From Filimonas lacunae (lineage in GTDB: Bacteria; Bacteroidota; Bacteroidia; Chitinophagales; Chitinophagaceae), in the NCBI RefSeq assembly GCF_002355595.1, contig NZ_AP017422.1, positions 5,708,823 to 5,772,822 on the forward strand: a stretch of DNA of 64,000 nucleotides, read 5' to 3'. This document shows, in pieces, positions 5,291-64,000 of this stretch. A program made the position numbers and the translations under genes. Numbering within the stretch: the first letter of the stretch is position 1; each line of letters starts with the position of its first letter. Below the pieces are notes generated by a model. That model was not told the origin of the DNA and did not search any database. It saw only the letters and a program-made list of their open reading frames with translations.

Positions 5291-5317
5291 AAATGATAAT
5301 AATGTTGAGAGCTTCGT

Positions 5318-6316: not shown

Positions 6317-6342
6317 AGCAGAAAGTTTTAAAAAATCATAAA

Positions 6343-9300
6343 TTAACGGATAATAGTAACCGAGCCGCTTAAAGTAGGCAAACCAGTTCCCAGTTTAATG
6401 ATATAGTAATAAGTACCTGTTGGCACATCCTGCCCGTTCATGCGCCCATCCCACGGCTTAGCATATCCTATGCTGTGAAACACACTCTGTCCATACCGGT
6501 TAAACACATCAATAACTCCATTGGTATAAGACGACAGATAAGGTATTTCCCACACATCATGTATACCATCCCCGTTAGGCGTAAACACATTGGGCGGCGC
6601 TATATCACGTAATATTTTTACCGTTAACGTATCTGTAGTGGTACAGTTAAATTCACCTGTAGCCGTAAGCGTATAGGTTACATCCTGTGTAACAGTTAAA
6701 TAAGGTTTTAATATGTTGGCATTACTCAGCCCCGTAGCAGGATACCATTGTAACTGGTAAGCAGAAGAATTGGCATACGCATCAAACTGCACCTGCGTTC
6801 CTTCTTTTACCATAAAGGAAACACCCGCATCAATAACTGGTTTGGCATGTACCACTACACTTTTGGTAAGCGGCAACGAAGCACAGCCTTTGGCATTTTT
6901 CACCACCAGGGTGGCAGTAGCCGTACCAGCCTGCTTATACACTTTTACAGGAGATGCTATAGAAGCGGTAGTTCCGTCACTAAATGTCCATCCCCATTTG
7001 CTTACTGTGCTACCAGCCGCAGTGCTGGCATCAGTAAACTTCACCTGCCCATCCTGACATATTTCCGCTGGAACAACCGTAAAGATGGCCACAGGCTTAT
7101 CCGAGAATTTATCAGCCACCTTAGCAGCTGTATTCACACAACCTGCGGCAGTAGTGGCAGTAAGTGTTACGGTATAACTTCCACTGGTAGCATATATGTG
7201 GGAAGGGCTCACTGTTGCAGACGTAGAAGTACCATCTCCAAAATTCCAGTTATACGCCAGAGAACCATTGCCCGGCACAGAAGATTTGTTAGTAAACACT
7301 GCAGCACCGCCCGGCATACAAATAGTATCAGGCACTGTAAAATCAGCTACCGGCAAAGGCTGCACCACCACGCTTTGTGTATCAGGCACGCTGGCACAGT
7401 TATGGTTGCTGGTAGCGGTAAGTATTACCCTGTAAGTACCATAAGTTGCATAAGTATAATCGAATGCAGTACCAGTGGTTTTATTGGAGGTATTCTTGTC
7501 ACCAAAATTCCAGCTCCATTGTGTAATCGTGTTTCCTGTAGCCACAGTAGCCGTTGGAGTAAACTTCGTTGGCCCACCTGCACAAACATTATTCACAAAA
7601 GTAAAATCAGCCACGGGAGCAGCATATACTTCAATAGTTTGTTTGGCAGAATCAACACAGCCCAGGTCAGTAGTATATACATACCAGATAGTATGCACAC
7701 CTGCCCCTGCCTGTGACGGCGTAAATACTCCTGTGGTGCTGGTACCTGGCCCTTTGTATATACCTGTTCCGGGAACACCATTGGTTACAAGCGCTTTGGC
7801 AACAGAAACAGCGGCCGCCTTTTCACATACAGCCGTTAACACATCATAAGTAAACTGGGGTGCAGGGTTGAAAACTGCTTTGATAACCGTATCAGTCACA
7901 CAACCATTCGTGCTGGTTGCCTTATAAGTAACATTATAATTTCCATACTGAACGTAAACATGGGAAGGACTTGCCACTGTAGCTGTATTAGGATTGGCTG
8001 CAGTAGCATTGGCATCTCCAAAATTCCATTGATGACTGGTAATAGTTTGTCCATCTGCAACTGTGCTGTTGTTGGCAAAAGTAACCATACCATCTTTCGG
8101 CAAACACCCTTCCGGATAACTGATGCTGACAGTGGGTGCGCTATATACTTTTACCACCTTACTTATAGTATCACTGGCACACAAACTGCCGGCCTTTACT
8201 ACCAGTTTTACAGTATAATTACCACCTGTGTTATAAGTTTCCGGCTGTGTAATGTTGGTCGCGGATGTTTGTGTATTACCATTGCCCATGATCCAATACC
8301 ATTGCAGGCTGCCGGTTCCTTCATAAGTGGCAGTTCCGGTAAACGTATAGGTTCCTTTAGCGCAAATAACAGGCTCGTTGGCTACAAAAGCTGCCTGTGG
8401 AGGCGCATATACTACAATTTTTTTCACTGTATCGGCTACACAACCCTCTGTAGTAACCGACCGCAACTTCACCGGCTGATCAGCGCCTGCTGCCAGCAAA
8501 TGCACTGTATCCTTACCTGTTGCAGTAGCAGCATCGGGAAATAACCAGTTCCATTGATAAAACGTATATCCTTCCGGAGCTTTATCGGTTCCGGAAAAAT
8601 GCACCGTATCCAGTGTACAATTGGTATTGCGGCTAAACGTATAATCATTTTTAGGCTTGGGTTTCACAATGATGCGCAGCAGCAGCTCTTCTTTATGATC
8701 GCACTTTTCAATTTCAGGACTGGTAAATTCAGCAGGCAGATAAAAGGTATCTGCACTATTAAACTGGTAGGTACCCGGAAGCGTGTACTTATAGTATAAG
8801 GCCCCGTTTAACTCCACTGTTTCCGTAGAAACCGGGGCGCTATCTGTTACATCAACAGCCGGCGAAAGGCTGCCTGCCAATGCACTCAGCTTCCAGGTAA
8901 TACTGGTAGGCTTATAGGCTACTAACGCAAAAATAGACACCGGGGCATCTACACAGGTAAAAGCATTAGGCTCGTTGGTGGCACTTAAGTTATTATGGAT
9001 AGAGCTTCTGGCATCCAGGTTATAGATATGCGTTCCTGCATTATAAGCATAACTTTCCCCACTGCCCAATCCATAGGTAATGGCAGTAAAAGCCGAGTCA
9101 CTGGTTACCACACATTGCCCTGGAGGATCTGCAGGGTAAGGCCATAATCCCCCCCATCTTTTCACCACCACAGTAAAGTCCGGCATTTGAGGGTGTGGAT
9201 AGGAGTAATATTCAGCAGCAGAAAAAGACGATACAGGCTGCCCGTCAATACGAAGAGAAGACAAGCCTGTTCCTTTGTTTGTTACAATTAAGGTAAGATA

Positions 9301-10509
9301 GTTAACGACAATAGCGTTTCTGTTATTTCTGAAAAAACCGATATTATTAATTCCCTGATCAATCGGGCTCAGGTAAATCATATCAGGATCTGAATTCAAA
9401 CTGGCTCCCGGGCAACCCGCCCGCCCGCCCAGCAAATACTGTGCAACCATTATCGGCTTGTCAGCCTCAACTACATCGGCAGTAGTACTTTCAAAATAAT
9501 AATAGTTGTTCTTCAGCCCGGTTAGTACCACCCCATTTCGTTTAACAACTGTATTCACATCCTTCACCAATACCTTGTAGGAATTCAATGTTAAAAAATT
9601 CACTTTATCGTCCCTTGAAGTAGGCGCAGTTAAATAACGTTTACCCCAGGCATGTGTAGGAAATACCTGCTGCATATCGGGCTCCTGATAACCATAGTTA
9701 CAAGTTGTTTTACCCTGGGTACTGCTACATCCGGAAAAAACACCAATAGGATAACACTGACCAGCGCCATTATCCACCGACAAGAACTTAGTTCCCGACA
9801 TTTCATAGCCACCACCTCCGCTTCCATCACTCACCCCTTTTTCACTCAACATCTGGTACACCTCTCCTTTTTGCAGTGTTACATAAAAGGGAGTGCCCGC
9901 CGCTTTCCCTGCATAGGTTTTTATACTAGGGGTAATTTCCACCTTTGTGTTGTCGTGGCTGGCTATTACATACGCCCACGAACTGGTACCTCCCGACTGA
10001 TTGGTATTTAAAGAATAATAACTATAACCCCAGGTATTTACCGGCATTAACATGCTGGCCCCGGAAGCGCCTGTAGCAATTACATGCGCGTAAGCTACAA
10101 TAGGTTTGGTACTGGTGATATGTATACCTCTGTCTGTATATAAACCCTCGCTACCGCCAGACAACTCATCCCGGAATAATCGGGCATCTATCATCGTTGC
10201 ATCATTGTATTTCGGCATTTCGTCCGATACAATAACGGTGTGTGCTGCTACAGAATATGTTTTCGTCCAGGTAGTATTATTAATAGAAACAGTAACCTCA
10301 GCAGCTTCATCTCCAGCACTGAAATACAGAAAAAGACTTTGTGTATTTCTTAAATTAGGATCTAATGGATCGGGTATCTTATCCATAAAATAATGATGCC
10401 CATAGCCCGTCCAGAACTCAGTGCCCCTATTGGTAGGTTCCTGTGCATGCAACCATGCACAGGAACTTAGCCAGAAAATCAAACATAATATAGAGCGTTC
10501 AAACTTCAT
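6343..10509 (-). CDS. 1388-aa PKD-repeat surface protein with T9SS type B sorting domain
   Basis: Predicted cell-surface adhesin. Order of parts: signal peptide (1-22, ending WLHAQ); an IgGFc-binding-protein-like N-terminal domain at about 28-490 (RGTEFWTGYGHHYF; DRGIHITSTKPIVAYAHV; ASMLMPVNTWGYSYYSLN); a run of about six PKD/Ig-like domains at about 600-1300 with recurring WxWxFGD signatures (WNFGDANATAANP, WSWNFGDKNTSN, YNWNFGDGTSTS) and cysteine pairs; and a gliding-motility-associated type B CTD at about 1306-1388 (NVFTPNGDGIHDVWEI, IDVFNRYGQSVFHS, WDGRMNGQDVPTGTYYY). The CTD directs export by T9SS. The ATG follows the stop of the 3265-aa gene with no gap, so translation is probably coupled. 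Ligand unknown. Confidence 0.9.
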   Translation of the reverse strand: MKFERSILCLIFWLSSCAWLHAQEPTNRGTEFWTGYGHHYFMDKIPDPLDPNLRNTQSLFLYFSAGDEAAEVTVSINNTTWTKTYSVAAHTVIVSDEMPKYNDATMIDARLFRDELSGGSEGLYTDRGIHITSTKPIVAYAHVIATGASGASMLMPVNTWGYSYYSLNTNQSGGTSSWAYVIASHDNTKVEITPSIKTYAGKAAGTPFYVTLQKGEVYQMLSEKGVSDGSGGGGYEMSGTKFLSVDNGAGQCYPIGVFSGCSSTQGKTTCNYGYQEPDMQQVFPTHAWGKRYLTAPTSRDDKVNFLTLNSYKVLVKDVNTVVKRNGVVLTGLKNNYYYFESTTADVVEADKPIMVAQYLLGGRAGCPGASLNSDPDMIYLSPIDQGINNIGFFRNNRNAIVVNYLTLIVTNKGTGLSSLRIDGQPVSSFSAAEYYSYPHPQMPDFTVVVKRWGGLWPYPADPPGQCVVTSDSAFTAITYGLGSGESYAYNAGTHIYNLDARSSIHNNLSATNEPNAFTCVDAPVSIFALVAYKPTSITWKLSALAGSLSPAVDVTDSAPVSTETVELNGALYYKYTLPGTYQFNSADTFYLPAEFTSPEIEKCDHKEELLLRIIVKPKPKNDYTFSRNTNCTLDTVHFSGTDKAPEGYTFYQWNWLFPDAATATGKDTVHLLAAGADQPVKLRSVTTEGCVADTVKKIVVYAPPQAAFVANEPVICAKGTYTFTGTATYEGTGSLQWYWIMGNGNTQTSATNITQPETYNTGGNYTVKLVVKAGSLCASDTISKVVKVYSAPTVSISYPEGCLPKDGMVTFANNSTVADGQTITSHQWNFGDANATAANPNTATVASPSHVYVQYGNYNVTYKATSTNGCVTDTVIKAVFNPAPQFTYDVLTAVCEKAAAVSVAKALVTNGVPGTGIYKGPGTSTTGVFTPSQAGAGVHTIWYVYTTDLGCVDSAKQTIEVYAAPVADFTFVNNVCAGGPTKFTPTATVATGNTITQWSWNFGDKNTSNKTTGTAFDYTYATYGTYRVILTATSNHNCASVPDTQSVVVQPLPVADFTVPDTICMPGGAAVFTNKSSVPGNGSLAYNWNFGDGTSTSATVSPSHIYATSGSYTVTLTATTAAGCVNTAAKVADKFSDKPVAIFTVVPAEICQDGQVKFTDASTAAGSTVSKWGWTFSDGTTASIASPVKVYKQAGTATATLVVKNAKGCASLPLTKSVVVHAKPVIDAGVSFMVKEGTQVQFDAYANSSAYQLQWYPATGLSNANILKPYLTVTQDVTYTLTATGEFNCTTTDTLTVKILRDIAPPNVFTPNGDGIHDVWEIPYLSSYTNGVIDVFNRYGQSVFHSIGYAKPWDGRMNGQDVPTGTYYYIIKLGTGLPTLSGSVTIIR

Positions 10510-13500
10510 CTACCTCACCAGATTTATAGTACCTTTTTTAGTTTCCCGTTTACCATTATCCAGCAAAATGTCGGCTACATAAATGTATACGCCCGAAGGT
10601 TGCGGCTTGCCTTTGTAAGTACCGTTCCAGCCGGTGTTCTTATCATTGGTTTCAAACACCTTCTCACCCCACTGGTTAAATATCATTAAACGCAGTTGCT
10701 GAATGCTGTTACCATATATTTTAAAGTATTCATTCTCGGCCGGGCCATTGTTATCAGGTGTAAACGAGTTAGGAATAAATACTTCCTGTACCATGGTAGT
10801 GGCCGATACCGCTGTGGATATGGCAGGCACACAGCTACCTAACACTCTTACCTTAATGGTTACTGTTTCACCTAAGCTTAAACCGGTAACTGTATGAGAA
10901 AGACCGTCGCTACCCGATGGCGCTATCCACGTAGTACCATTATCAATACTTACCTCATACCCAGTCGCACCAGGCACAGCAGCCCACACAAAAGTGATGG
11001 TGTAAGAAGTAATAGCGCCCGCTTTTACCACTGGTGCCGGTAACGGAGCGTTGATAGCAACAGGCTTGGTAGTATCACCTAAACAACCGTTGGCATCTAT
11101 CACATCCAGTCGCACCTGGTAGGTGGCAGCTGTTTTATAAGTATGTACCGTATCTTTTGTATAAGCAGCAGCACCAGCATCATTAAAGTCCCACTTCCAG
11201 TTGATAATAGAAGCATTATTTACCGTTTGTGCCGATCCGCCAAACTGCGTTTCACTACCTAAACAGGTACCATCGAATACAAAATCAACCAGTGGCGCTG
11301 CTGCTACCTTAATTGGCACCAATGTCTCCTGTTTAGAATCGCAGGCATCAATGTCAGGATGTGAGATATAAGCAGTGATCACATAGTCACCAGGTGCATT
11401 CAACACGTATTGCTGATCTAATGCATATTGATAGTAAGTAATGCCATTGATAACAATGGTATCGGTAGCCTTCGGAAACTCTGTATGCACATCCGCATTA
11501 GGCGATAATTGTGGCACAGTACTCAGCTTCCAGTCAATAGCAGTAGGCTGTACAGTGGTCATCAGGCTTAACTTAAACGGTGTACCCGCACAGGTATAAT
11601 CGTTATAACCACCGCCTGGTGAATAAGAGTTACTCAGGTTTACTTTGGTATTCAGGTTCAGCACCATGGTTCCGGCATTGTAACCGTAGCTTTCATAAGC
11701 ACCCATACCATAAGTAACACCGGTAAATGATGAATCACATTTCACAATGGACTGTCCCTTGCTGGCTGTCCAGCGTACTACTACTACTGTATAACCAGGC
11801 AAATTAGGATGCGCATAAGCATAATCCCAGGTGTTAGCGCCATCAATGGTTAATGAACTCAACCCTTTGGTAGGCACAATCAAAGTGAGGTATTGCACGA
11901 GAATAGCACTGGTAGTGTTCCTGTACAATTGCGCTTCTTTCACACCTTGCTCTATCGGGCTGATAAAGAACATTTCCGGATCACCCATAGAATCTGTTAC
12001 ACCACAGCTATGTGTAGATGGCTGAAACTGTGCCACCAGCACCGGCTTATCTGACTTAATATAATCAGCGGTACTGCTGGCAAACTCGTAGTAACGATTG
12101 CTTACCAAACCACTCAGCAGAGAACCATTCAACTCTACTAAGGTGTTAGGATCTTTTACATATATACGGAACACGTTTGTTAATAATCGTTTAGCATCGG
12201 TGTAGTGCGAGCTTGGCGCTGTAAGGTATTTTTTACCCCAGGCCTGGTAAGGGAAGTTTTGCTGTAACACATTATCACCTGTTCCACTGGTACTAAACAT
12301 GCTACAATCAAAACCGGTAAGGTTACTTCCCGAGAACACAGCTACCGGCCAGCATTTGCCATTGTCGTTTTGAACCGAACGGATTTTTGTTCCGGTTAAA
12401 TCGTAAGACACTTCCATACCGTCGTCAATAGCACCTATAATTTGATATACCTGGCCTTTTTTCAACGTTACCCTGAATGGCACATTGGCCACATGCCCTT
12501 GTGTAGGCACAGACGGTGTAATTTCCACCACAGTACTGTCGTAGGCGGCTATCACCTCCACCACAGAAGCGTTTACATTACCCGGGTTATAGGTTTGTCG
12601 TGGCGTTAGTGCATAGTATTCATAACCATAGGTACCCACAGGCAGTAACATAGTAGCTGCAGATGCCGAAGGACCATAGATGTGTGCATAAGCCGAAATA
12701 GCTTCATCACTTTCAATACTGATACCGCGATCGTACAAGCCTTCTTTCAGCAACCTGGCATCAAACTGGCCTGCTTTAGGCATCAGGTCAGAAGTAATGG
12801 CAGTGTTTGCAGGCACCGTATAGGTTTTTGACCATTGTGTTCCATTAATCTTAATGGTTACGTGTGCAGTTTTACTACCCGCACCTAAATAGAACACCAT
12901 ATCCTGGGTATTGCCCATGGTAAACAATACTGTATTAGCATAAGGAGCCCAGAACATGGTGCCACGGCTACTGGTATCACGGGGAGTTTTAACAATAGGA
13001 TCAGTGGGCGCTTCTTTACCATCAGTAAGCCCTGTAAATTTCGCTAACACGGCAAGTCCGGTATCAGCGATAGAGTTACCAATAGTATCCAGTTTGCTTT
13101 TGCTGGAAATTTCCCAGACAGCTGCATTGGTTTTGCCCAGTTTAATAGTGGTTTCTTTTTCAATAGTTCCTCTCCATGAATTTACATAATACTGTTTCAC
13201 AGCATGCCCTGTTGGCGCAGTACCGGTTGTAGTAAATGCAGTGTAGAAGTACATGAATGGCTGATTAGCTGCCAGACCTTCCGGCGCTACACCTGAATAT
13301 CTTTTGCCTTCAATTTTGGAAGGCACAGTGCTACCCCAGTTAATAATGGTTACCGTATCCGTTCCCAGCATAAATACCTGCTGACTATTTGCCTGCGGCA
13401 CTGCTGGTGTGGCCGTTAATAATACCGGAGCCACTGTTGGAGTAAATTCATAAGCCCCCATATCAGGCACACCGGTTTCCATAGTAACAGGACGCGCAAT

Positions 13501-16500
13501 ACCATTTATATCTTTTTTACTTTCCGGCACCTGCACACCGCGTCCGTGCATAGCCCACACATTGGCATTGGCTACATCAGGAGTCAATAATTTTTTATCT
13601 GCAAAAACAGGTTTGTACACTAACGAGCTGTAATCCACATTACCCGCATTCTGCCACTGTTCCAGACTTACCAGGTTATTACCGTTATACCATACCAGTG
13701 TAGCGCCTTCGCTATACAACAGGTTGTAATCAATACCTCCTGTAACAGCGTTATACATTTTTAGCGCTGCACCACCGCCACCAATGTTGGAGAAGATGTT
13801 GTTATAAGCAAATGCACCAGGAGAAAACGCAGCTGCTGCGCTGTTTTCTGTAGCAGATTCTATTTGTATAGAGTTATTGTAATAAGCACAGCCATCGCCA
13901 GCGCCCTGACTATTAATACCATAAGCTTCGTTTCCTTTTGTGCCAATAACAATTACGTTATTCATGGCAGAGAAGCTAGAAGCGTTGGTGTAAGGGTTTA
14001 AACCAGTAACACTACCCGTGTTGGTGCTATCGGCCAGTATAATATTACCGGAAACCGATCCCCTGTTACTACCGCCAGCGCTTACAAACACGATGATAGC
14101 AGAAGTGGAACTGGCAGTATTGGTAATGGTGATTTTATTCTTATCTACTTTATAAGCCGAATCACATTTCTGCATCCAAATGCCATAAGAACGCACATTC
14201 TGGATACCGTCTTTATTAATAGTATTACCGCTTATGGAAACATAATTGATATTCTGAGCGAAAATATTAGCATTATAACTGTTGTTTACCGTGTTGCTAT
14301 CTATCACAAATTTCTGCGCATAACGCTCTACACCAAACAGGTAAACACCGGCCATACCGTTGGTAATGGTATTTTTGGTAATCACATTCTCCACACCATA
14401 CAAATCCTTACCATACACCCCCACCACATTTTCCGAAGTATTACGCGTTACAGGTAAGTCTATAATACAACCTGTAATGCTATCGTAAGAAGAAGTGCCT
14501 GTGAATTCTACCGCCCTGGCATAATCAGTGCCATCAGGCTTAATGCTCATGTTTTTGAAAATAATGTAGTTGGCTGTATCCAGTTTCACCACATAATTGG
14601 TATCGCTGGTAGTAGCAGCTGTAACAATAGTGGTAGCAGCCACATTATCCTTACTCAAAAAGGTTACAGTAGCTGTTGCAGAAGTTCCCGGTATTTTAGG
14701 CACCCTTACCCTTTCGGTATAAGTACCCGGGGTTACTAAGAAGCGAACGGCACCTTCAATACCACACGACATCGCTGCAATAGCCTCACCAAACGACTGG
14801 AAGTTTTTATTACCGGCCGGCAAAGCAGGATCAATAGTATAATCACCTGCCAGCAGTCCCTGGTTTATAGATAATTGCACAGGCTGTGAATAGGCTACAC
14901 CAGTGCCACATACAACTACCGCGCGGAACCAGGCATCTTTTGAAACCAGTTCGTAATTGTAAAAGCCAGATGCAGAGGTATCACTGATAGTCGTCCAGGT
15001 ACCGTCAGCTGCTGACGCACGCTGCCATACATATTTCTGGCCACCACCTGCACTATTGCCATTTAATGTTAATTGTGCCTGTGCCCCCATACAAGTTCCT
15101 GTAGCAGGAGTAACAACCGCTACGCCCGGTGTAGGCGGAGCTGTACAAGGTGCACTGTTAAACTCAAACGCTCCCAGGTCTGGCGAAGAAGTATTTCTTG
15201 CTACATTGTTAATATCCGTGTTAATACCAACCGGTGCACCAGTGTTATCCAGTGCAGGCAGTGTGGAAGCAAATTTACCTGCCGCCGTATCTTCATAAGC
15301 CGGATCAAAGCTTACAGAACTGGCATCCACATTCGCTGCTGCTCTCCAATCGGCCAGGCTTGCCCTGTCAGCCCCATAGAAACCTGTAAACTTATTAGTG
15401 CCGGCATCTACCCATATATCATTAAAATCAGAAATAAAGCTATAACTGTTAGGAGCATATATACCATATCGTTTGCCTGTGCCGCCACGTAACACGGTAA
15501 TAATATTATTCTTCACTTCAGCACCGCTGCCGTTCTCTAACTGCATATACATGCCTTCTGTCAGCGATGATCCAGTGTAGTCTTTGTTGTCCAGCGAAAT
15601 AGTGTTATGATAAAAACGGGTTTTTCCGGAATAGCTATAGTAAATACCATAAGCAGCGCCCTTTCCATTAAAATTATAAATCAGATTATTAGACACTGTA
15701 TTCGGTGCATAATCGTATGGCGAAGTTCTATCCAGGTATATACCATACATACCCTGTGTAGAAGCAGGGTTGCCGCCAAACGGAGTGTGTATCCTGTTTT
15801 TGGAAATCTGCAGGTTGTGGCTGTTCTGAATAGGAGATGCCCCACCACCTCCTTGAACCATGATACCATAGAAGGTATTTACACTGGTTCTGTTAGGCCT
15901 GCTGATAACATTACCTTCAATCACAGTACTCATAGAACAACCCAGGTAAACACCCGTAGAATAGAAGTCCTTGATAGTATTGCCAATTACCTTATTGCCC
16001 GTATTGGCCGAATTATATCCCCCCATCATGCTGATGCCACAATAGCCCCCTATAATAGTATTATTCTGGAATAGGTTATAATCTGAATAAGTATCATTGG
16101 AAACAGAAGAATAATAAGTACTTCCATTTACCAATATACCTACATAGCTGGAAGACGAATTATTAAGCGGCATCAGGATAGTACTATTGCGGAAAGTATT
16201 ATAATTAGCGCTCTTTTTTAAATTAACACCTATGCCATAATATCCTGTACCAATAGTATTAATTACCAGACTATCAAAAATGATATAATCTGTCTTTTGT
16301 AAAGTAATTACCGCCTGGTTGTCGTAATCTGAAGAAGAATAAGCGAGCGTGTCACCATTACATTTGAACGTAATAGTATTCACCGCTGATGTACCAGGGA
16401 TAGAATCCATGATCAGTTGCTCGTTATACGCCTTTCCACCAGGTAATACATTAAATACCACAGGCCCTTTAATACCACATTTCAATGCCTGGTAAGCCTC

Positions 16501-19500
16501 GTTAAAGCTTTTGAAATCACCTGTTCCCTCCTGGTCAATAGTGTATACACCAGCAGCCAGCATAGCGTCTACTGCTATAGAAATAGGCTGGGTATAAACA
16601 GTGGTACCCTTACAGGTTACAGCTGCCCTGTAAAACACAGCATCGGTACCAGGCAGTGTAATAAAATTAGGTTTGGTTTGTACGTTACTGATAGGTGCAT
16701 AAGTACCCGTTTCAGTAGTAGAAGCCTGCCACTGGTAAGTTTGTAAACCACCCGTAGAGTTGCCGGTAAGGTTCAGTTCCAGTTTATTGCCTTCACAAAT
16801 TTCATCGCTATTAGCCACCGCAGTACCTGCCACAGGAGCAACACAAGGAGGAGCCGTAAATTCATACGCACCCATATCCGGATGTGAAGCATCCCTGGCC
16901 GCACCAGCAAGATCCACCAACACCGATACCGGCTGGCCCGAATTATCAATAGCACCACTCTGCGGTTTAAAGTTACCGGCAGCCACATCCGTATATACCG
17001 GATCTACAGATGCCGAATTAGCATCGTTGGTACCTTGTTGAAAATCGGCAAGGCTTTTACGAGTCAATGCACTTCTGTATCCAATGCTGGCATTAGTAGC
17101 ATCACTGGCTATAAAGTAGTTATTATAATCAGAAGCGATACCGCTTTCCCTGGTAGCATAATACATAGCATATTTATTACCATCTCCTTTACGGCTGATA
17201 GTAATGATATTGTCTTTAATGCGAATACCACCAGCAGTATTGATCTGATAAAAACCATACGAATCATAATTACCGGAGCCATCTACATGAATGGTATTAT
17301 GATAAAAAGAAACACCATCAGAACCGGAGTTATATAACCCGTAGGCTGATCCCGAACCAGTCATGTTATAGATCAGGTTGTTGCTGATTAAATTTTCTGC
17401 ACCAGCATATGCATCAGCCGAATTAAGATAGATGCCATAAAAATCGTCCGTAGCATCAGGACTGCCACCAAATGGATTGGTGATAATATTACGGGTAACG
17501 ATGTTGGAAATTTGACCAGTGTTCAGGTAAATACCCATCACAGAACTGGATGAAGTACGGGTAGGACGACTGATATAGTTACTGTCAATAAGGGTATTGA
17601 TACAGTTAGAAGTCCATATACCTGCATTCAGGAAGTTAACGAATTTGTTACGGCGTATAATGTTACGTACGTTCGGCTTGGTTGCATTACCTGCCAGTGA
17701 AATACCATAGTATCCCCCTACCACAGTATTGTCTTCAAATATATTATCATCCGAAAAAGCCTCCCCCCATTCAGGGTTGCCACTGGCCATGCCATTCACT
17801 ACTATACCGCTATAACCATGATCGTAAATAGTTAAAGTAGTATCTGAATAGATAGTACAACGACGGATAATATTAGAATCAGCATCATTCATTAACTGTA
17901 TACCAAAGCCATAGTACGAAGCGCTGGCCCCTGGTGCATTGATCACCAGGCTGTCTATAATTAAATGATCTGTTCCGTTCAGCTTTACTACAGCCCTTTC
18001 ATTTGTGTTATCAGAAATATAGAAAAGCATGTTGCCATTACCGTTAATGGTAATAGTATTCACCGGAGATGCACCAGGCACAGGTGTAGTGATCAATTGT
18101 TCGTTGTAAGGGCCAGATCCGGGCACTACGTCAAATATTACCGAGCTGGTAATACCACACTGAACAGCACTCCACGCATCGTTAAACGATTGAAAATTTC
18201 TTCCACCGGTAGCAACGGCCTTATTAATGGTGTAATTGCCGGAAAGTTTGTACTTGGTAGTAAGCTGTACCGCTTCGGAAGGTGTATTCCCCGTTCCGCA
18301 ATACGTTACCAGCCTGTACCAGGTATCGGTAGTTTGCGCCACTGTTACTTGCTTGGCTGTACCACCAGCAATATCTGTCCAACTGTTTTTATCAGCCGAA
18401 TATTGCCATTGGTAAGTTAAACCATCGCCTACTGCACCACCACTACTGGTTAACAGCGCACTGGCAGCTGAACACACTGCAGTTTGTGCAATATTTACAG
18501 TAGACGCAGCCGGAGGGTTAGAACAGGTAAGATAGGTAAACTCATAAGCACCCACATCAGGTGTGGTGGCATCACGCACGGCCAGATCAAAATCTTCACC
18601 AATTCCAGCTGCTGTTCCTTTATTATCCAGCTGTATATTATTCGGTTTTAAATTATCTTCTTTAGCATTCAGAAAAAACGGATCAATCAGCACACTTGAT
18701 AAGTCACTGCTGGTTTTGGTTTGCCAGCTGCTTAATGTTTGTTGCCCCGAACCTGCATAACCGATAAAATGGGATGCTATAGGCAACATATAAATATCGT
18801 TATAGTCACTTGTTAAAGTAACTGCATCAGTATTCTTGTAAATGCCATAACAATTACCCGCACCGCTTCTTTGGATATCCACTATGTTATTTTTGAAAAT
18901 AACTCCCGTTGCAGTGGTACTCATATAAAAACCAGCAGAAGCCTGTGCGCTTGCCTGAGTGCTGGTACTATCAAAAAATATGGTATTGTGGTAATAATAG
19001 GCATAATCAGAAGATTGATTATATAAGCCTATTACTTGTCCTGCTCCTTTAAAACCATACATCAGGTTATTGGTAACTATATTCGGGCTGGAAATATCCG
19101 CATCACAACCACTAAAGTAGATACCATAACTATAAGTAGTACTACCCGTGTTAGCACTACTAAGATTATAAATTCTGTTACGGGTTATTTGTAAGCCTGT
19201 ATTTTCAGATTCTACCAGGATACCACTGAAAACAGATAGCGAGATACGCTTGGGTTGCGAAATACTGTTACCTGCAACAATGGTTTCAGTGGTTGTATTC
19301 AAATTAACACCGGCAGTATAAGCATCTTTAATAATATTATTCAATACCTGGTTGTGGGTACCACTTCCTGTAATACTAATACCGTACCTGCCTCCTATTA
19401 TAGTATTGTTCTCAAAAAGGTTTTCATCGCTATAGCTGTTCGTCCAGCCTGTATTGTTATCAGCACCGCTTACAACTATACCGGAATAGCCATCAAAAGT

Positions 19501-20307
19501 GTTATTCTGTCCTGCATTAATAGTACACTTTCTAATAATATTACCATCAGCATCATTCGTCAACACAAAGCCAAAACCCGACTGGCCCGTAGTAGCATTT
19601 ACCTGCAGACTATCGAATATAATATGATCAGCGCCATCCAGCTTAATAATGTAGCGTGAATCGTAGTAGCCTGTTCCTGCATAAGAAACGGTATTTCCGT
19701 TACCATTAAAAGTAATCGTATTGATATCTGAGGCCCCTTTTATTTCCGGAATAACCAGTTGCTCTTTATAGTTATATCCTGACGTTGTTACATCAAACAC
19801 AACAGGCCCCACTAAACAGGAACTCGTTAATTTTTCTATAGCGCTTGTAAAAGAAGGGAAATTGGTTTCTGTTTGTGGAAGGGATGCATTAATAGTATAG
19901 GTGCCCGACATCCCCACTTTTACTGTTATTGTATCAGAAACCACTATTAAAGAACCATTGTACAAACATTGTCCTATAATTCTATAATAGCTCGTGCCAG
20001 GCATTGCCGGCGATTGTATAGCATTGTTCTGCGGATCGAAAGAAGGAGCCGACATAGATACAAAGGCATCAGAAGGCGATGCTGCCCACTGTACAAAGAA
20101 GAATACAGACGGATCTGTTGTATTACTGGCTAATGTAAAACTCAGCTGTGTACCCGGACACACACCTGTTACATCTGGTGGAACCATCTTTCCTATAGTA
20201 GCAGTTCCACAGGGCGGCTGCGCCAAACCGGGAACGGCTGCCATACATAGCAGTAGTGGTAATAAAAATTTCCTACAAACGAACACTTGTAAGTAATCGA
20301 TCTTCAT
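10510..20307 (-). CDS. 3265-aa beta-helix/IgGFc-like/PKD giant surface protein with T9SS type B sorting domain
   Basis: Very large predicted surface adhesin and first gene of the cassette. Signal peptide at 1-29. Four successive units of about 555-570 aa start near residues 134, 690, 1255 and 1824. Each has an NFQSF-type entry helix, a right-handed parallel beta-helix (IIFDSLVIN, NLIYNF, GIYL repeats), a closing DxGAYEF, then, after the first three, a Cys-flanked Ig-like domain (TYQWQYS, WYRLVTYCG). After these come an IgGFc-binding-protein-like domain (about 2450-2900; RGTMFWAPYANTVLF, LLPVGTYGYEYYAL), one PKD domain (about 3000-3085), one fibronectin-III-like domain (about 3087-3170) and a type B CTD (about 3173-3265; FIPNSFTPDNNG, IFNQWGEKVFE, GVYIYVADI). 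No catalytic motif for a polysaccharide lyase was recognised in the helices, so binding or structure is more likely than enzymatic action. Confidence 0.9.
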   Translation of the reverse strand: MKIDYLQVFVCRKFLLPLLLCMAAVPGLAQPPCGTATIGKMVPPDVTGVCPGTQLSFTLASNTTDPSVFFFVQWAASPSDAFVSMSAPSFDPQNNAIQSPAMPGTSYYRIIGQCLYNGSLIVVSDTITVKVGMSGTYTINASLPQTETNFPSFTSAIEKLTSSCLVGPVVFDVTTSGYNYKEQLVIPEIKGASDINTITFNGNGNTVSYAGTGYYDSRYIIKLDGADHIIFDSLQVNATTGQSGFGFVLTNDADGNIIRKCTINAGQNNTFDGYSGIVVSGADNNTGWTNSYSDENLFENNTIIGGRYGISITGSGTHNQVLNNIIKDAYTAGVNLNTTTETIVAGNSISQPKRISLSVFSGILVESENTGLQITRNRIYNLSSANTGSTTYSYGIYFSGCDADISSPNIVTNNLMYGFKGAGQVIGLYNQSSDYAYYYHNTIFFDSTSTQASAQASAGFYMSTTATGVIFKNNIVDIQRSGAGNCYGIYKNTDAVTLTSDYNDIYMLPIASHFIGYAGSGQQTLSSWQTKTSSDLSSVLIDPFFLNAKEDNLKPNNIQLDNKGTAAGIGEDFDLAVRDATTPDVGAYEFTYLTCSNPPAASTVNIAQTAVCSAASALLTSSGGAVGDGLTYQWQYSADKNSWTDIAGGTAKQVTVAQTTDTWYRLVTYCGTGNTPSEAVQLTTKYKLSGNYTINKAVATGGRNFQSFNDAWSAVQCGITSSVIFDVVPGSGPYNEQLITTPVPGASPVNTITINGNGNMLFYISDNTNERAVVKLNGTDHLIIDSLVINAPGASASYYGFGIQLMNDADSNIIRRCTIYSDTTLTIYDHGYSGIVVNGMASGNPEWGEAFSDDNIFEDNTVVGGYYGISLAGNATKPNVRNIIRRNKFVNFLNAGIWTSNCINTLIDSNYISRPTRTSSSSVMGIYLNTGQISNIVTRNIITNPFGGSPDATDDFYGIYLNSADAYAGAENLISNNLIYNMTGSGSAYGLYNSGSDGVSFYHNTIHVDGSGNYDSYGFYQINTAGGIRIKDNIITISRKGDGNKYAMYYATRESGIASDYNNYFIASDATNASIGYRSALTRKSLADFQQGTNDANSASVDPVYTDVAAGNFKPQSGAIDNSGQPVSVLVDLAGAARDASHPDMGAYEFTAPPCVAPVAGTAVANSDEICEGNKLELNLTGNSTGGLQTYQWQASTTETGTYAPISNVQTKPNFITLPGTDAVFYRAAVTCKGTTVYTQPISIAVDAMLAAGVYTIDQEGTGDFKSFNEAYQALKCGIKGPVVFNVLPGGKAYNEQLIMDSIPGTSAVNTITFKCNGDTLAYSSSDYDNQAVITLQKTDYIIFDSLVINTIGTGYYGIGVNLKKSANYNTFRNSTILMPLNNSSSSYVGILVNGSTYYSSVSNDTYSDYNLFQNNTIIGGYCGISMMGGYNSANTGNKVIGNTIKDFYSTGVYLGCSMSTVIEGNVISRPNRTSVNTFYGIMVQGGGGASPIQNSHNLQISKNRIHTPFGGNPASTQGMYGIYLDRTSPYDYAPNTVSNNLIYNFNGKGAAYGIYYSYSGKTRFYHNTISLDNKDYTGSSLTEGMYMQLENGSGAEVKNNIITVLRGGTGKRYGIYAPNSYSFISDFNDIWVDAGTNKFTGFYGADRASLADWRAAANVDASSVSFDPAYEDTAAGKFASTLPALDNTGAPVGINTDINNVARNTSSPDLGAFEFNSAPCTAPPTPGVAVVTPATGTCMGAQAQLTLNGNSAGGGQKYVWQRASAADGTWTTISDTSASGFYNYELVSKDAWFRAVVVCGTGVAYSQPVQLSINQGLLAGDYTIDPALPAGNKNFQSFGEAIAAMSCGIEGAVRFLVTPGTYTERVRVPKIPGTSATATVTFLSKDNVAATTIVTAATTSDTNYVVKLDTANYIIFKNMSIKPDGTDYARAVEFTGTSSYDSITGCIIDLPVTRNTSENVVGVYGKDLYGVENVITKNTITNGMAGVYLFGVERYAQKFVIDSNTVNNSYNANIFAQNINYVSISGNTINKDGIQNVRSYGIWMQKCDSAYKVDKNKITITNTASSTSAIIVFVSAGGSNRGSVSGNIILADSTNTGSVTGLNPYTNASSFSAMNNVIVIGTKGNEAYGINSQGAGDGCAYYNNSIQIESATENSAAAAFSPGAFAYNNIFSNIGGGGAALKMYNAVTGGIDYNLLYSEGATLVWYNGNNLVSLEQWQNAGNVDYSSLVYKPVFADKKLLTPDVANANVWAMHGRGVQVPESKKDINGIARPVTMETGVPDMGAYEFTPTVAPVLLTATPAVPQANSQQVFMLGTDTVTIINWGSTVPSKIEGKRYSGVAPEGLAANQPFMYFYTAFTTTGTAPTGHAVKQYYVNSWRGTIEKETTIKLGKTNAAVWEISSKSKLDTIGNSIADTGLAVLAKFTGLTDGKEAPTDPIVKTPRDTSSRGTMFWAPYANTVLFTMGNTQDMVFYLGAGSKTAHVTIKINGTQWSKTYTVPANTAITSDLMPKAGQFDARLLKEGLYDRGISIESDEAISAYAHIYGPSASAATMLLPVGTYGYEYYALTPRQTYNPGNVNASVVEVIAAYDSTVVEITPSVPTQGHVANVPFRVTLKKGQVYQIIGAIDDGMEVSYDLTGTKIRSVQNDNGKCWPVAVFSGSNLTGFDCSMFSTSGTGDNVLQQNFPYQAWGKKYLTAPSSHYTDAKRLLTNVFRIYVKDPNTLVELNGSLLSGLVSNRYYEFASSTADYIKSDKPVLVAQFQPSTHSCGVTDSMGDPEMFFISPIEQGVKEAQLYRNTTSAILVQYLTLIVPTKGLSSLTIDGANTWDYAYAHPNLPGYTVVVVRWTASKGQSIVKCDSSFTGVTYGMGAYESYGYNAGTMVLNLNTKVNLSNSYSPGGGYNDYTCAGTPFKLSLMTTVQPTAIDWKLSTVPQLSPNADVHTEFPKATDTIVINGITYYQYALDQQYVLNAPGDYVITAYISHPDIDACDSKQETLVPIKVAAAPLVDFVFDGTCLGSETQFGGSAQTVNNASIINWKWDFNDAGAAAYTKDTVHTYKTAATYQVRLDVIDANGCLGDTTKPVAINAPLPAPVVKAGAITSYTITFVWAAVPGATGYEVSIDNGTTWIAPSGSDGLSHTVTGLSLGETVTIKVRVLGSCVPAISTAVSATTMVQEVFIPNSFTPDNNGPAENEYFKIYGNSIQQLRLMIFNQWGEKVFETNDKNTGWNGTYKGKPQPSGVYIYVADILLDNGKRETKKGTINLVR

Positions 20308-58099: not shown

Positions 58100-58606
58100 T
58101 TATGGAAGATATTGGATGGCGTTTTCACCGGTTACCGGCAGCTGTATATTGTTCAGCACCGGCTTTTCGCTTTTACGAAACACGATAGCGGGTGCCGCTT
58201 TGCCGGATAATACCTGCACACCGGTAAGCGATAAGCGGGTAACATCATCAGCAATAATAGCCGTGCGAAAATCGTCTTTTTTATAAAAAAGTGGAACGTT
58301 GTTCCCATAATCCAACCGGTTAACACTTCCCATTAAAACAGCATTTTGCGCCAGGTGCAGCTCTGTATTACTTTTTAATTGGAGGGAACCTGTTACAAAA
58401 CGCCCGGCAGGCACCAGCACCCTACCACCGCCCGCAGCTGCGGCTTTGTTAATAGCAGCCTGTATGGCAGCGGTATTCACCGTCAGGCCATCGCCTTTAG
58501 CGCCAAATTGGGTAATAGTATAAACTGTTTTTACTTTTTGCTGCGCAACAGCAGCCGTAAACAAGCAAAGCAATACATGTAGCAGCAGGCAACCTTTCCG
58601 TTTCAT
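58100..58606 (-). pseudogene. GH28-family remnant lacking the catalytic core
   Basis: 168 aa from ATG 58606 (the longer frame begins with GTG). A signal peptide (LLLHVLLCLFTAAVAQQ) and the N-terminal entry of a GH28 polygalacturonase-type beta-helix: ITQFGAKGDGLTVNTAAIQAAINKAAAAGGG, VLVPAGRFVTGSLQLKSNTELHLAQ. It then jumps to a tail (LTGVQVLSGKAAPAIVFRKSE... GENAIQYLP). GH28 enzymes are 400 or more aa; the NTD, DD, GHG and RIK motifs are absent, so the catalytic part seems deleted in frame. It could still be expressed as a small non-enzymatic protein. It sits 11 bp in front of GH92. Confidence 0.65.
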
Positions 58607-58659
58607 TGGGGGAAATAGTTTAGGTAAGTATTGCACAAATATACATGTTAAAACAAGCG

Positions 58660-59721: not shown

Positions 59722-61476
59722 CTATTTAATACTTTTCATTTGTATGTTCTCCCGCAAATTTCCCGATACGCCCAGACAGTATTCGCACGACTGCAATGGT
59801 ACAGCAGCATTCAGATATTCTAATGCCTTTGCAGCAAAAGCAGGATCATTCACGGGTATGCCATCTTCTTCTGAGTAGGTAGAAGACGTTGTTTGCACAG
59901 GCTTATTCTTCATGTGCAAAAATTCATTCATATATGACGCACGGGTACACTTATAAAAAGTGCCATTGCGCACAATCAGGCAACGATGCCGCATCCAGCA
60001 ATCATTATATATTTCCTGAACTCTTTCTTTGTCAGTGATGGCATCTTCAACAAATATTTCATTAAACTGTTCAACATATTTAATATTTAATACTACCTCG
60101 TATTCCCGCGCCTTGTCTTTTACCTGTTGCAGCAGGTTAGCCTTCATAGGCGCACTGATATAATGAGAAATCGTCAATTGATCTATGTTCTCCCAGAACA
60201 CGTTAGACATACGATGCAGCAGCAAACCATTAGAAACCACCCTTACCACCGGTGCAGCGCCCGAAGATTTTATCACCAGTAACAGCTCATCCAACTGCGG
60301 ATGCAAGGTAGGCTCGCCGCCTGCTACCTTAAACACATCGGGCCGCAGGTGCGTTTTTACAAACGCACAGATGTTGGTGATCTCTTCAATGCTCATAAAC
60401 TTTTTGGCGTTGAAGGGTGAAATATTACAGCAATCGCGGCATTTTAAATTGCAATGCTCCGCCACATGCACCTCAAACGATTCTGTGCGAATAAGATCGC
60501 CTTCTAACACATACTTGGGTGTAACTCCCTGTTCCGTTTCTCCTTTTTTCACATACAACGCTTCCAGCTCTACCAGCAACTCTTCGCGGCAAATAGCGGC
60601 CTGCACAAAACTTACCACGCAGGCAGGCGATAAAAAGCGCGGAACAAACCTTTCCAGGAAAGCCCTGTCGTGCTCGTGCTTATAATATACACGCATGTGC
60701 ACGATGTCTTCCAGTGCAAAACCGTAATGGATGTTATACTGCTTTAAATTAAACTGGCTACCCAATATGCGCAGGTTGTGTATGCTTTCATATAACTGAT
60801 CGTGTACATCCCCTTCATGTAATGAATGCTCGCCTTTAATACTGGCTGTTCCGGACGAAAGCAACAGGCGTTGCCCCTGGTTATTAAAAACAACACCCCG
60901 GCTAAAAAAAGGAGCCACCTGGCCATACCGGCTGGAGTATTGAAAGGCAGGCACCTGGTCTTTATTCTCAATCTGCACCAATGGCGTGGTCACCGCCATA
61001 AACGTTACCGTAAGCACATTGCCCGCTACCCCTACTGCACTGGCGGCCGGCACAGGCATAGCCCCCATCCTTTCACCATAGTAAGTTTTAAAAGCAGCCT
61101 GGCGGCCGGCATTAAACCAATGATATACCGTTTCTGTTTCGTTTACACGGGAAACTATAGCAGGCAAATAATTCCAGAAGCGGATAATGGTGTAGGCGCT
61201 ATAGGCTTCCATAGCGCTGAACACCGCCAGGTAAGCCTGCATCACCACCTTTTCCATATCCTCTGCACCGGTGGATAAAGGCAAACTGATAACACCCGAA
61301 ACCCCATTAGCGGTAACAGATAGCGATACATTATGAATGCTGGCAGTTTCTGCAACGCCCGCCTGTTCTGTTACCCAGGCATCTACAAAACGATCGCCTG
61401 CATAAGTAACTTTTACGGCGCACAGCTGCTGTTGCAATAAGGCCTGGTATTGGTTTTCATCGGATACGTATAACAT
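59722..61476 (-). CDS. Chorismatase-like domain fused to a radical SAM enzyme
   Basis: 584 aa from ATG 61476, which follows the PIG-L stop after 2 bases; a longer frame from 61494 overlaps it. Residues 1-310 read as a chorismatase (FkbO/Hyg5/XanB2) domain: RFWNYLPAI (99-107), HWFNAGRQAAF (119-129), PAASAVG (143-149), YGQVAPFFSRG (184-194), SGTASIKGEHSLHEGD (208-223), and AAICREELLVELE (293-305), which has the conserved C-terminal Glu of the active site. These enzymes turn chorismate into 3- or 4-hydroxybenzoate or a cyclohexadiene diol carboxylate. Residues about 335-584 are a radical SAM domain: CNLKCRDC (C342, C346, C349), GGEPT (386-390). C-terminal cysteines (CWMRHRC, YKCTRA, CEYC) look like an auxiliary cluster. 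Cofactor and product are inferred. Confidence 0.8.
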   Translation of the reverse strand: MLYVSDENQYQALLQQQLCAVKVTYAGDRFVDAWVTEQAGVAETASIHNVSLSVTANGVSGVISLPLSTGAEDMEKVVMQAYLAVFSAMEAYSAYTIIRFWNYLPAIVSRVNETETVYHWFNAGRQAAFKTYYGERMGAMPVPAASAVGVAGNVLTVTFMAVTTPLVQIENKDQVPAFQYSSRYGQVAPFFSRGVVFNNQGQRLLLSSGTASIKGEHSLHEGDVHDQLYESIHNLRILGSQFNLKQYNIHYGFALEDIVHMRVYYKHEHDRAFLERFVPRFLSPACVVSFVQAAICREELLVELEALYVKKGETEQGVTPKYVLEGDLIRTESFEVHVAEHCNLKCRDCCNISPFNAKKFMSIEEITNICAFVKTHLRPDVFKVAGGEPTLHPQLDELLLVIKSSGAAPVVRVVSNGLLLHRMSNVFWENIDQLTISHYISAPMKANLLQQVKDKAREYEVVLNIKYVEQFNEIFVEDAITDKERVQEIYNDCWMRHRCLIVRNGTFYKCTRASYMNEFLHMKNKPVQTTSSTYSEEDGIPVNDPAFAAKALEYLNAAVPLQSCEYCLGVSGNLRENIQMKSIK

Positions 61477-62381: not shown

Positions 62382-63612
62382 AAGGTGTTAATGGTTTACG
62401 GGTGTTATATAATTGAATGATCAGTTGTGCCGCTTCCGCAGCGCCACCTTTTTGCCGAAACGCTTCTCCTGCCAAACGGGCACGCTCTTTTTCAGCCGCA
62501 CCATTATGCAATAAAGGCAACAGCTGTTGCCGGTACACCGATGGGGAAGGCTGTGCAGGGTCCAGCACTACCCCCACACCTGCATGCTCAATAAATTTTG
62601 CCTGCAAAAACTGGTCGTTACAAATAGGTAGCACTGCCACAGGCACCCCATTGGCCAATCCTTCCATTACCGAGTTAGCACCGCCATGTGTAATTAACAG
62701 CTGCACGTGCTGTAACACCTGTAACTGCGGCGCATACGGCACGGCTATAACATTATCCGGCAGGCTGTTTACAAAATCGGTATAATACAATTCATTAATA
62801 GAAAATATCAGTTGTATATCTTCATCATACAAGGCTTCTGCTACTGCCCGGAATAACTGCGGGTGATAATAAATCTGGCTTCCCATTGACATATATATTT
62901 TCTGTGTGCCGGGCAGTAATTTTTCAAAAGGAAAATCAGCTTCGTCCCCTCTTTTTCCGGCGGGGAAGCTATTTCCTACGTAAAAAGAAAAATCATTCCT
63001 GCTAAAACGGCGCGACACATATTCCTCTACCGTAAACACGATATTGAGCCAGGGCGATATTACATCGCTTACTTTAAATTGTGGTTGCCAGTCTGGTGTA
63101 GTCATCAGCTCCTGCCGCAGGTAATCCAGGTCATCCAGCGTATCCGTCAGCTCGCACTGCCAGCCATCGGGGGTAACAGGATTTAAGGAAGAAGAAACGC
63201 CTGCCCAGGGAATACCTGCACGGTTAGCTACTATAGCAGCGGCATACACCATAGGATCGGTAACAATAATATCCGGCTCAAACGCATCCACCGCCTGCTG
63301 TATCCGTTGCACCTGTGCAGGCACCGCATCTATCAGTAAAGTTTTAATCCAGTTACGCAACCAGGCTATATCGGCCAGTTGCTCTACAAAGGCTTTGCCT
63401 TTGGTAATAAAACCTTCGCTTACATTCACTACAGTGGTATCGTAAAACACCTGCTGGTGCAAACCTGCGGCCTGCAACTGGTCAGAGATATCTACCTGTG
63501 CAAAAAATGCCAGTTCAAACCCGGCCTGCTGTAAATGCTGGGCAATGCCAATCATCGGGTTAATATGTCCTTTCTCCGGAATAGTAACTATCAATATCTT
63601 TTTAGTTTGCAT
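62374..63612 (-). CDS. GT1 family (UGT/MGT-type) glycosyltransferase
   Basis: 412 aa, GT-B fold glycosyltransferase of the macrolide/flavonoid type. N-terminal acceptor domain starts ILIVTIPEKGHINPMIGIAQHL (the GHxxP helix). The C-terminal nucleotide-sugar domain has YMSMGSQIYYHP, APQLQVLQHVQLLITHGGANSVMEGLANGVP (H of the HGG motif binds the diphosphate) and the following LPICNDQFLQAKFIEHAGVG. Complete, no signal peptide, cytoplasmic. It overlaps the asparagine-synthase-like gene by 11 bp and the PIG-L gene by 8 bp, so the genes are cotranscribed and translationally coupled. Sugar donor and acceptor are unknown. Confidence 0.88.
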   Translation of the reverse strand: MQTKKILIVTIPEKGHINPMIGIAQHLQQAGFELAFFAQVDISDQLQAAGLHQQVFYDTTVVNVSEGFITKGKAFVEQLADIAWLRNWIKTLLIDAVPAQVQRIQQAVDAFEPDIIVTDPMVYAAAIVANRAGIPWAGVSSSLNPVTPDGWQCELTDTLDDLDYLRQELMTTPDWQPQFKVSDVISPWLNIVFTVEEYVSRRFSRNDFSFYVGNSFPAGKRGDEADFPFEKLLPGTQKIYMSMGSQIYYHPQLFRAVAEALYDEDIQLIFSINELYYTDFVNSLPDNVIAVPYAPQLQVLQHVQLLITHGGANSVMEGLANGVPVAVLPICNDQFLQAKFIEHAGVGVVLDPAQPSPSVYRQQLLPLLHNGAAEKERARLAGEAFRQKGGAAEAAQLIIQLYNTRKPLTPCD

Positions 63613-64000
63613 ATACTTTAGACCAGTTGATTAAACAAATCATATTAAAAAGCATCATCCTTTCATTTTCTGTTACAGTTGGCAACTGACACAAGGCTTC
63701 CAGCGCCGGGCGATGCAAACAGGCATCTACAAAATCGTTGCGCTGCTGTAACAGGGTATGTAACACCTGCTGGTAACCTTTACCCAAACGCGGATCGCGT
63801 GGCAGGGCCGATTTTTTGCGCCAGGCATATGCTTTATCCAGCCATCCCAACGCCGCCGTTCTTACTACATACTTTTCCATGCCGGCTTTAAAACCATAAC
63901 GGGGCAACACCTGCGATGCCACCGTAAGCACTTCCCTGTTGGCAAACGGCACCCGTGCTTCCAGTCCGGCGTGCATGGTATGTATATCGCCGTTATGCAA
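63602..64000 (-). CDS. Asparagine-synthase-like protein, 5' part outside window
   Basis: The last 132 or so codons of a larger gene; the frame is open to the window edge and the first codon (TTG at 64000) is not a real start. MHAGLEARVPFANREVLTVASQVLP followed by KAGMEKYVVRTAALGWL and WRKKSALPRDP is the end of the AsnB C-terminal synthetase domain (ATP-dependent amide formation), with ANRE instead of the usual LDHR-type sequence after RVPF. It therefore belongs to the asparagine synthase-like group, which includes natural-product amide-forming and cyclising enzymes. The stop is inside the glycosyltransferase gene (11 bp overlap). The N-terminal glutaminase domain, if any, is not visible. Confidence 0.83.
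   Translation of the reverse strand: MHNGDIHTMHAGLEARVPFANREVLTVASQVLPRYGFKAGMEKYVVRTAALGWLDKAYAWRKKSALPRDPRLGKGYQQVLHTLLQQRNDFVDACLHRPALEALCQLPTVTENERMMLFNMICLINWSKVYAN

Follow-up and report, generated by a model that had tools for sequence, protein, structure and literature searches.

Investigation of a 64,000-nucleotide stretch of the Filimonas lacunae genome (hereafter the window) revealed a single gene encoding a protein in which a chorismatase-like N-terminal half is joined to a twitch radical SAM C-terminal half. In the window genome (G000), a second genome of the same genus (G114) and a genome of another genus of the same family (G795), this fusion closes a run of six genes on one strand which touch or overlap at most junctions and encode, in this order, an APH-like kinase, an NMNAT-like protein, an AsnB-like amidotransferase, an MGT glycosyltransferase, a PIG-L deacetylase and the fusion itself (Table 1). 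Our tentative reading is that the fusion serves as a bifunctional enzyme in a compact pathway of six genes leading from chorismate through a radical-edited aryl aminosugar to an NAD-like dinucleotide, a pathway whose substrates, step order and product we infer.

Domain layout and the chorismatase half

The fusion gene lies on the minus strand, with an ATG at 61476 and a stop codon ending at 59722 (an alternative GTG start at 61494 is possible), and its 584 codons are free of internal stops; the plus-strand frame over 59722-61476 contains stops throughout. Every chorismatase and radical SAM motif listed in a preliminary description of this DNA is present in the protein, namely RFWNYLP (residues 99-105), FNAGR (121-125), PAASAVG (143-149), SGTASIKG (208-215), ICREELLVE (295-303), CNLKCRDC (342-349) and GGEP (386-389). 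In the phmmer alignments, a linker of 16 residues separates the last chorismatase-aligned residue (307) from the first residue aligned with the SpeY chain 7wzv (324). A full-length fold computed from a two-sequence alignment was unusable (pLDDT 36.1), and structural comparison therefore covers the radical SAM half alone. A misassembly, or a frameshift join of two separate genes as considered in the preliminary description, is ruled out by four intact copies of the fusion, 60-66% identical to the window protein.

Table 1. Positions of the fusion, its neighbours and related genes (window coordinates unless a locus is named).
Feature	Position	Strand	Remarks
Chorismatase half, residues 1-317 including linker (family match 23-307)	60526..61476	-	E303, C296 and G209 kept; A147 replaces Hyg5 Gly173
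Twitch radical SAM half, residues 318-584 and stop	59722..60525	-	CX3CX2C, GGEP, presumed auxiliary-cluster Cys, candidate H-atom donor C499
PIG-L-family N-deacetylase, 300 aa	61479..62381	-	HLDD and HIDH motifs
MGT-type glycosyltransferase, 412 aa	62374..63612	-	Few-base overlap with both neighbours
AsnB-like amidotransferase, C-terminal part	63602..64000	-	Whole gene 592 aa, extends beyond window; L002 8425-10203
NMNAT-like genes	L002 10204-11118; L007 6120-7046; L013 5201-6109		Extra N-terminal half
NAD-salvage-type genes upstream of cassette	L002 12178-15292, just past window end	-	Same trio in L013 1090-4213, other genus

The N-terminal half matches PF21168, the FkbO/Hyg5 N-terminal domain, over residues 34-161 (67.7 bits against a cut-off of 27, E 1.3e-18; 87.3 bits for the G114 fusion) and TIGR04444 over residues 23-307 (model positions 32-310 of 311, E 7.9e-46). 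The TIGR04444 score of 156.8 bits lies under the cut-off of 325, which indicates a divergent chorismatase, and a match to PF01042 at residues 202-307 was likewise under its cut-off. In phmmer searches, Hyg5/FkbO-type PDB chains were matched with E values of 5.8e-26 to 1.4e-24, and the alignment to the Hyg5-type chain 5ag3 places E303 on Glu334, C296 on Cys327, G209 on Gly240 and A147 on Gly173 (Hyg5 numbering). According to the available part of the source (PMC7170507), Glu334 is the essential acid of Hyg5 and corresponds to Glu325 of Nat-hyg5, in which Gly164, Gly231 and Cys318 are residues of the 3-HBA-forming subfamily; Nat-hyg5 positions were converted to Hyg5 numbering in this analysis by a shift of nine.

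The catalytic glutamate E303 is invariant in the four fusions, and G209 and C296 retain two of the three Hyg5-type (CH-II) positions. At the remaining position, the first of the three, all four fusions have A147 in place of the glycine carried by Hyg5 and FkbO as well as by two free-standing relatives; FkbO itself has alanine at both the Gly240 and the Cys327 positions. The fusion thus resembles the Hyg5/FkbO chorismatases (PDB 5ag3, 5a3k, 4bps) in its homology over residues 23-307 and in the catalytic Glu, Gly240 and Cys327, but differs from them in the attached radical SAM domain, the alanine in place of the remaining Hyg5-type glycine and the TIGR04444 score. The chorismatase-like character attributed earlier to this half is borne out by PF21168 and the matched chains, and assignment to another RidA-like family devoid of active-site residues did not occur, the catalytic Glu and the Hyg5-type Cys being kept. 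Judged from its residues, the N-terminal half very probably has chorismatase activity and would probably yield a hydroxybenzoate, with 3-HBA as the likeliest product; A147 in place of glycine in all four fusions would weigh against a firm product assignment. Elsewhere in the same phylum, a free-standing chorismatase relative adjoins a carbamoyltransferase and a methyltransferase in a small chorismatase locus (L014, 3693-7705).

The radical SAM half and its relatives

Regarding the C-terminal half, PF04055 was detected over cut-off at residues 339-436 (33.8 bits against 29.5, E 4.7e-8), with C342, C346 and C349 forming the CX3CX2C motif. Residues 318-584 were modelled from 24 sequences with a mean pLDDT of 87.4, the alignment drawing on 22 relatives chosen for the length of their matches among the 80 viral-contig loci listed. 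With this model, SpeY accounted for each of the best four PDB chains in Foldseek (E 1.4e-23 to 5.0e-22, query TM 0.84), followed by BlsE (7.9e-8, TM 0.48), and phmmer comparison of the fusion with 7wzv gave an E value of 9.6e-32. The radical SAM assignment of the preliminary description thus holds, with SpeY, the spectinomycin dehydrogenase, as the closest solved relative; its chains are titled twitch radical SAM dehydrogenase. AprD4 as the nearest relative was excluded because the Foldseek titles identify 7wzv as SpeY, and a diol-dehydratase reading was dropped for the same reason. On viral contigs (L025-L104), SpeY/HygY-type radical SAM relatives are frequent, making up at least 308 of 600 candidate stretches.

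The fusion shares with SpeY (PDB 7wzv, 7wzx, 7x0b) the fold of the whole domain, the CX3CX2C motif, the same four later cysteine positions and a CxxCLG motif near the end. These later cysteines, C493, C510, C564 and C567, presumably bind an auxiliary cluster; in the radical SAM alignment A5, C493 and C510 are present in all 24 rows, and among the 20 rows with a letter at the respective position, C564 is found in 19 and C567 in 20. Unlike the fusion, the SpeY chain consists of one domain of 322 residues; identity between the two is 28%, and SpeY has a serine (chain position 203) where the fusion has C499. This cysteine is invariant in all four fusions and is not specific to epimerases, since Cys is common at that column in the wider family (14 of the 24 rows of A5).

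A search of 72,556 plasmid records yielded 10 matching the fusion, none of them covering 80% of the query. A radical SAM protein from Streptomyces sp. SAT1 ranked first, with 31.4% identity over fusion residues 311-584 (E 2e-36). The presence of APH(7'')-Ia at 94.88% in its locus suggests a hygromycin-B-type cluster and, by this locus context alone, a HygY-like enzyme. Its Cys183 falls on C499 of the fusion, and we take Cys183 to be the H-atom donor of HygY, the twitch epimerase of hygromycin B, which reportedly reveals latent dehydrogenase activity upon mutation of a single cysteine. Enzymes of the SpeY and HygY types act on carbinol carbons. On balance, the carbinol of an aminosugar is favoured as the target of the radical SAM half, and we lean to a similar degree towards an epimerase rather than a dehydrogenase. 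In NeoN, the neomycin epimerase, a cysteine is the H-atom donor as well, as far as the available part of the source goes (PMC10991966).

Distribution of the fusion and composition of the cassette

Full-length fusions were detected in four genomes, those of G114, G795 and the metagenome-assembled genome (MAG) G984 (locus L005), which is labelled Parachlamydiaceae, being 66, 60 and 63% identical to that of the window, respectively. The fusion is present in two of the three genomes of the genus and, in overlapping samples of the family, in 2 of 195 and 3 of 394 genomes; in the larger sample there were also a chorismatase standing alone in G135 and a radical SAM protein standing alone in G839. A search of 395 genomes of the phylum returned the window's own fusion, one lone chorismatase (G383) and one lone radical SAM protein (G498). 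PF21168 was found in 2 of 298 genomes of the order, both times in a fusion, and in none of 14 control genomes; among the relatives of G984, 1 of 49 has the full fusion, with two weak radical SAM matches besides, and a scan of GTDB contigs gave one locus. Chorismatase and radical SAM protein as separate genes in one genome were not detected among the sampled genomes, with at most three candidates scored per genome. The fusion is rare. The unusual nature ascribed to it earlier stands: in the open-access literature searched, the available parts of the texts do not describe a chorismatase-radical SAM fusion, one co-mention concerning other genes, and the six-gene set was not found there either.

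Among the 394 family genomes, profiles of the fusion and of the cassette NMNAT each match G000, G114 and G795, and the NMNAT profile matches none of the others at E 1e-8. Pairwise identities are 46-54% for the kinase (four genomes), and 63-68% for the glycosyltransferase and 38-45% for PIG-L (three genomes). In G984, contig C498 carries the kinase, NMNAT and AsnB genes followed by a 120-residue start which by eye resembles the cassette glycosyltransferase and gave no Pfam match, and contig C489 carries the end of PIG-L and the fusion. In this MAG the kinase frame (273 aa) and the NMNAT frame (228 aa) are short. At L107 2390-3854 they overlap and are shorter than elsewhere, which could reflect assembly or decay.

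Regarding the partner enzymes, the nearest solved relatives of PIG-L are Dbv21 and the teicoplanin pseudoaglycone deacetylase, which remove the acetyl group from a glucosamine on a phenolic oxygen. The glycosyltransferase matches the MGT family model with E 2e-45, its 155.5 bits lying under the cut-off of 260, and its solved relatives include YjiC and the oleandomycin glycosyltransferases. The best solved relative of the AsnB-like protein is 7ylz, titled 'hydroxyamidotransferase' (174.6 bits vs 143.9 for E. coli AsnB), and its GDAADE motif has AADE in common with GEAADE of 7ylz, as against GSDE in GEGSDE of AsnB; the likeness to 7ylz is not decisive, since the asparagine synthase model TIGR01536 is also passed (356.1 against 267.1). 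The NMNAT-like protein of the window genome is of the archaeal type (PRK01153, 135.4 against a cut-off of 127; TIGR01527, 113.5, under 181.2) and has the motifs FHNGH (FHxGH) and SSTLIR (SSTxxR). These motifs vary in G114, G795 and G984, and the G114 protein, in which the first reads PLHNGH, scores 111.3, under the PRK01153 cut-off. The segment on the acceptor side differs from that of MJ0541, the tryptophan that we take to stack on nicotinamide in archaeal NMNATs is absent, and the N-terminal half resembles a degenerate copy of the protein's own catalytic half (hhalign probability 92.4). The kinase belongs to the APH family, and a search for solved relatives at E 0.01 gave none.

Immediately ahead of the cassette in G000 and G795 lie genes encoding an NrtR-type regulator, a NadM-Nudix-type protein and a nicotinate/nicotinamide phosphoribosyltransferase (NadV-type), and in G795 the start of the kinase overlaps the phosphoribosyltransferase gene. 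The regulator was recognised by NrtR_WHD in G000 and by the NtrR model in G795 (E 6.6e-41, under cut-off). The NadV-type protein scored 582.5 against 405 with the NCBIfam model for nicotinate phosphoribosyltransferase, Pfam adding NAMPT_N, and a phosphoribosyltransferase family match over cut-off was obtained in both genomes; family matches of the NadM-Nudix-type protein are weak (best in NCBIfam 49.0 against 397). The NadV-type gene is present in a single copy in G000, G114 and G795, in G114 on another contig than the cassette, and in G984 the cassette stands behind dipeptidase-type and TerC-type genes. The link to NAD may thus be positional, and the idea that the NAD-salvage genes are dedicated to the pathway is weakened. 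The cassette occupies three different settings across the four genomes and, provided that the MAG is labelled correctly, appears to have crossed between phyla. The dipeptidase-type gene of C498 (PF01546) has matches in 27 of 32 genomes taken as relatives of G984, G984 included, with a best foreign identity of 67%; this supports C498 as a real member of the MAG and weakens the possibility of contamination for this contig, the one with the kinase, NMNAT and AsnB genes that the test covered.

Other genes were observed in these regions. A reverse-transcriptase gene (PF00078; L003 1-954 and L002 19431-20000) is located some 7 kb past the cassette start, and proteins that we read as SusC/SusD-like are encoded near the copy in G114. 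Within the window, two proteins, 3265 and 1388 aa long and bearing IgGFc-binding, PKD and type IX CHU_C domains (3485-20307, minus strand), adjoin an OmpA-domain protein, and a 178-aa ORF (58100-58636, minus strand) matches residues 4-58 of the 213-position PF12708 (pectate-lyase-like), perhaps as a truncated gene.

Proposed pathway and alternative readings

In the proposed route, the N-terminal domain would split chorismate, most likely into 3-hydroxybenzoate and pyruvate; amidation of the carboxylate by the AsnB-like enzyme would yield 3-hydroxybenzamide, which resembles nicotinamide. The MGT glycosyltransferase would attach a GlcNAc-type sugar to the phenol and PIG-L would strip its acetyl group. 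The radical SAM domain would abstract H from a carbinol carbon of the resulting aminosugar and epimerise it with C499 as H donor, or oxidise the carbinol if C499 is not the donor. The APH-like kinase would phosphorylate the sugar, and addition of AMP by the NMNAT-like enzyme would give a dinucleotide built like NAD; by analogy, the series of aryl acid, amide, glycoside, sugar phosphate and adenylate would parallel NAD synthesis. Chances are even that the amide forms on the aryl acid, the kinase and NMNAT would act on the glycoside, and an AMP dinucleotide as the end product falls somewhat short of an even chance. Glycosyltransferase and PIG-L steps occur in aminoglycoside-type pathways, and radical SAM editing of an aminosugar would be common to the proposed route and to NeoN and other aminoglycoside-type aminosugar editing, from which the route would differ in its aromatic, chorismate-derived aglycone and in the added kinase, NMNAT and amidotransferase.

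The preliminary description had the radical SAM domain act on the chorismatase product or on a partner carrying it. With relatives from aminosugar loci, and with a glycosyltransferase and a deacetylase in the operon, the former is less supported and the latter comes close to the reading favoured here, a glycoside being more likely as substrate than the free chorismatase product. Direct action would mean that the radical SAM domain epimerises or dehydrogenates a carbinol of the FkbO-type trans-3,4-dihydroxycyclohexa-1,5-diene carboxylate, channelled to it by the fusion, with the sugar genes acting later. We consider this unlikely: the domains are fused in all four cassettes and occur as separate genes in no sampled genome at up to three scored candidates each, the third Hyg5-type residue is changed (A147), and the diene has two carbinols, the target type of SpeY/HygY enzymes, but C296 and G209 are of the Hyg5 type where FkbO has alanine twice, and both SpeY and the HygY-like relative stem from aminosugar antibiotic loci, matched by the sugar enzymes of the operon.

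NMNAT-superfamily enzymes can produce ADP-sugars, and a conventional aminoglycoside-like or aryl glycoside antibiotic, a radical-edited hydroxybenzoate glucosaminide, might be made with the kinase and NMNAT-like enzyme supplying an ADP-sugar donor, in analogy to HldE, or inactivating the product for self-protection. The aminosugar-type radical SAM relatives, the glycosyltransferase and PIG-L pair and the APH-family kinase would fit such a product, which we hold to be rather unlikely given that the six genes include no transporter and that the nucleotidyltransferase is specifically NMNAT-like. Quite improbable is a mere tether, in which the two domains serve separate steps at a ratio fixed by the fusion, the product has nothing to do with nicotinamide or NAD, and aspartate or some other acid is the substrate of the AsnB-like enzyme; the tight operon with overlapping genes and the TIGR01536 score agree with it, but it leaves the NMNAT and kinase pair and the place behind NAD-salvage-type genes in two genera unexplained, and the AsnB-like motif differs from that of asparagine synthetase B.

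Returning to the favoured route to an NAD-like dinucleotide, NMNAT converts benzamide riboside mononucleotide to BAD and Vacor mononucleotide to VAD, and such NMNAT-made NAD mimics are known as poisons, as described in the available parts of the sources (PMC6770829, PMC10889166). With the activation of benzamide riboside, tiazofurin (to TAD) and Vacor as it appears in these parts, the proposed route would share phosphorylation followed by the action of NMNAT on the glycoside of a nicotinamide-like base; BAD, TAD and VAD arise when ordinary enzymes of the host activate drugs or poisons, whereas the route would use a dedicated gene set, start from chorismate and have a hexosamine in place of ribose. 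A further extension, somewhat unlikely in our view, is that of a dedicated, horizontally moving six-gene pathway, the bifunctional chorismatase-radical SAM protein being one of its enzymes, that turns chorismate into an aryl-carboxamide aminosugar adenine dinucleotide as a natural NAD mimic; this compound could be an antimetabolite or an unrecognised cofactor or signal.

Thus, each domain belongs to a known family, and it is their fusion and the six-gene set that are new relative to the open-access literature searched. The set would offer a short route, open to testing, by which chorismate becomes a radical-edited aryl aminosugar. Its NMNAT and kinase pair suggests that the end product is a nucleotide, of a kind met, in the available parts of the sources, as host-activated drugs and poisons. 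Being common to Bacteroidota and a MAG labelled Parachlamydiaceae, the gene set suggests a transferable trait, and the system would show whether radical SAM enzymes of the SpeY/HygY type accept glycosides of simple aromatics.
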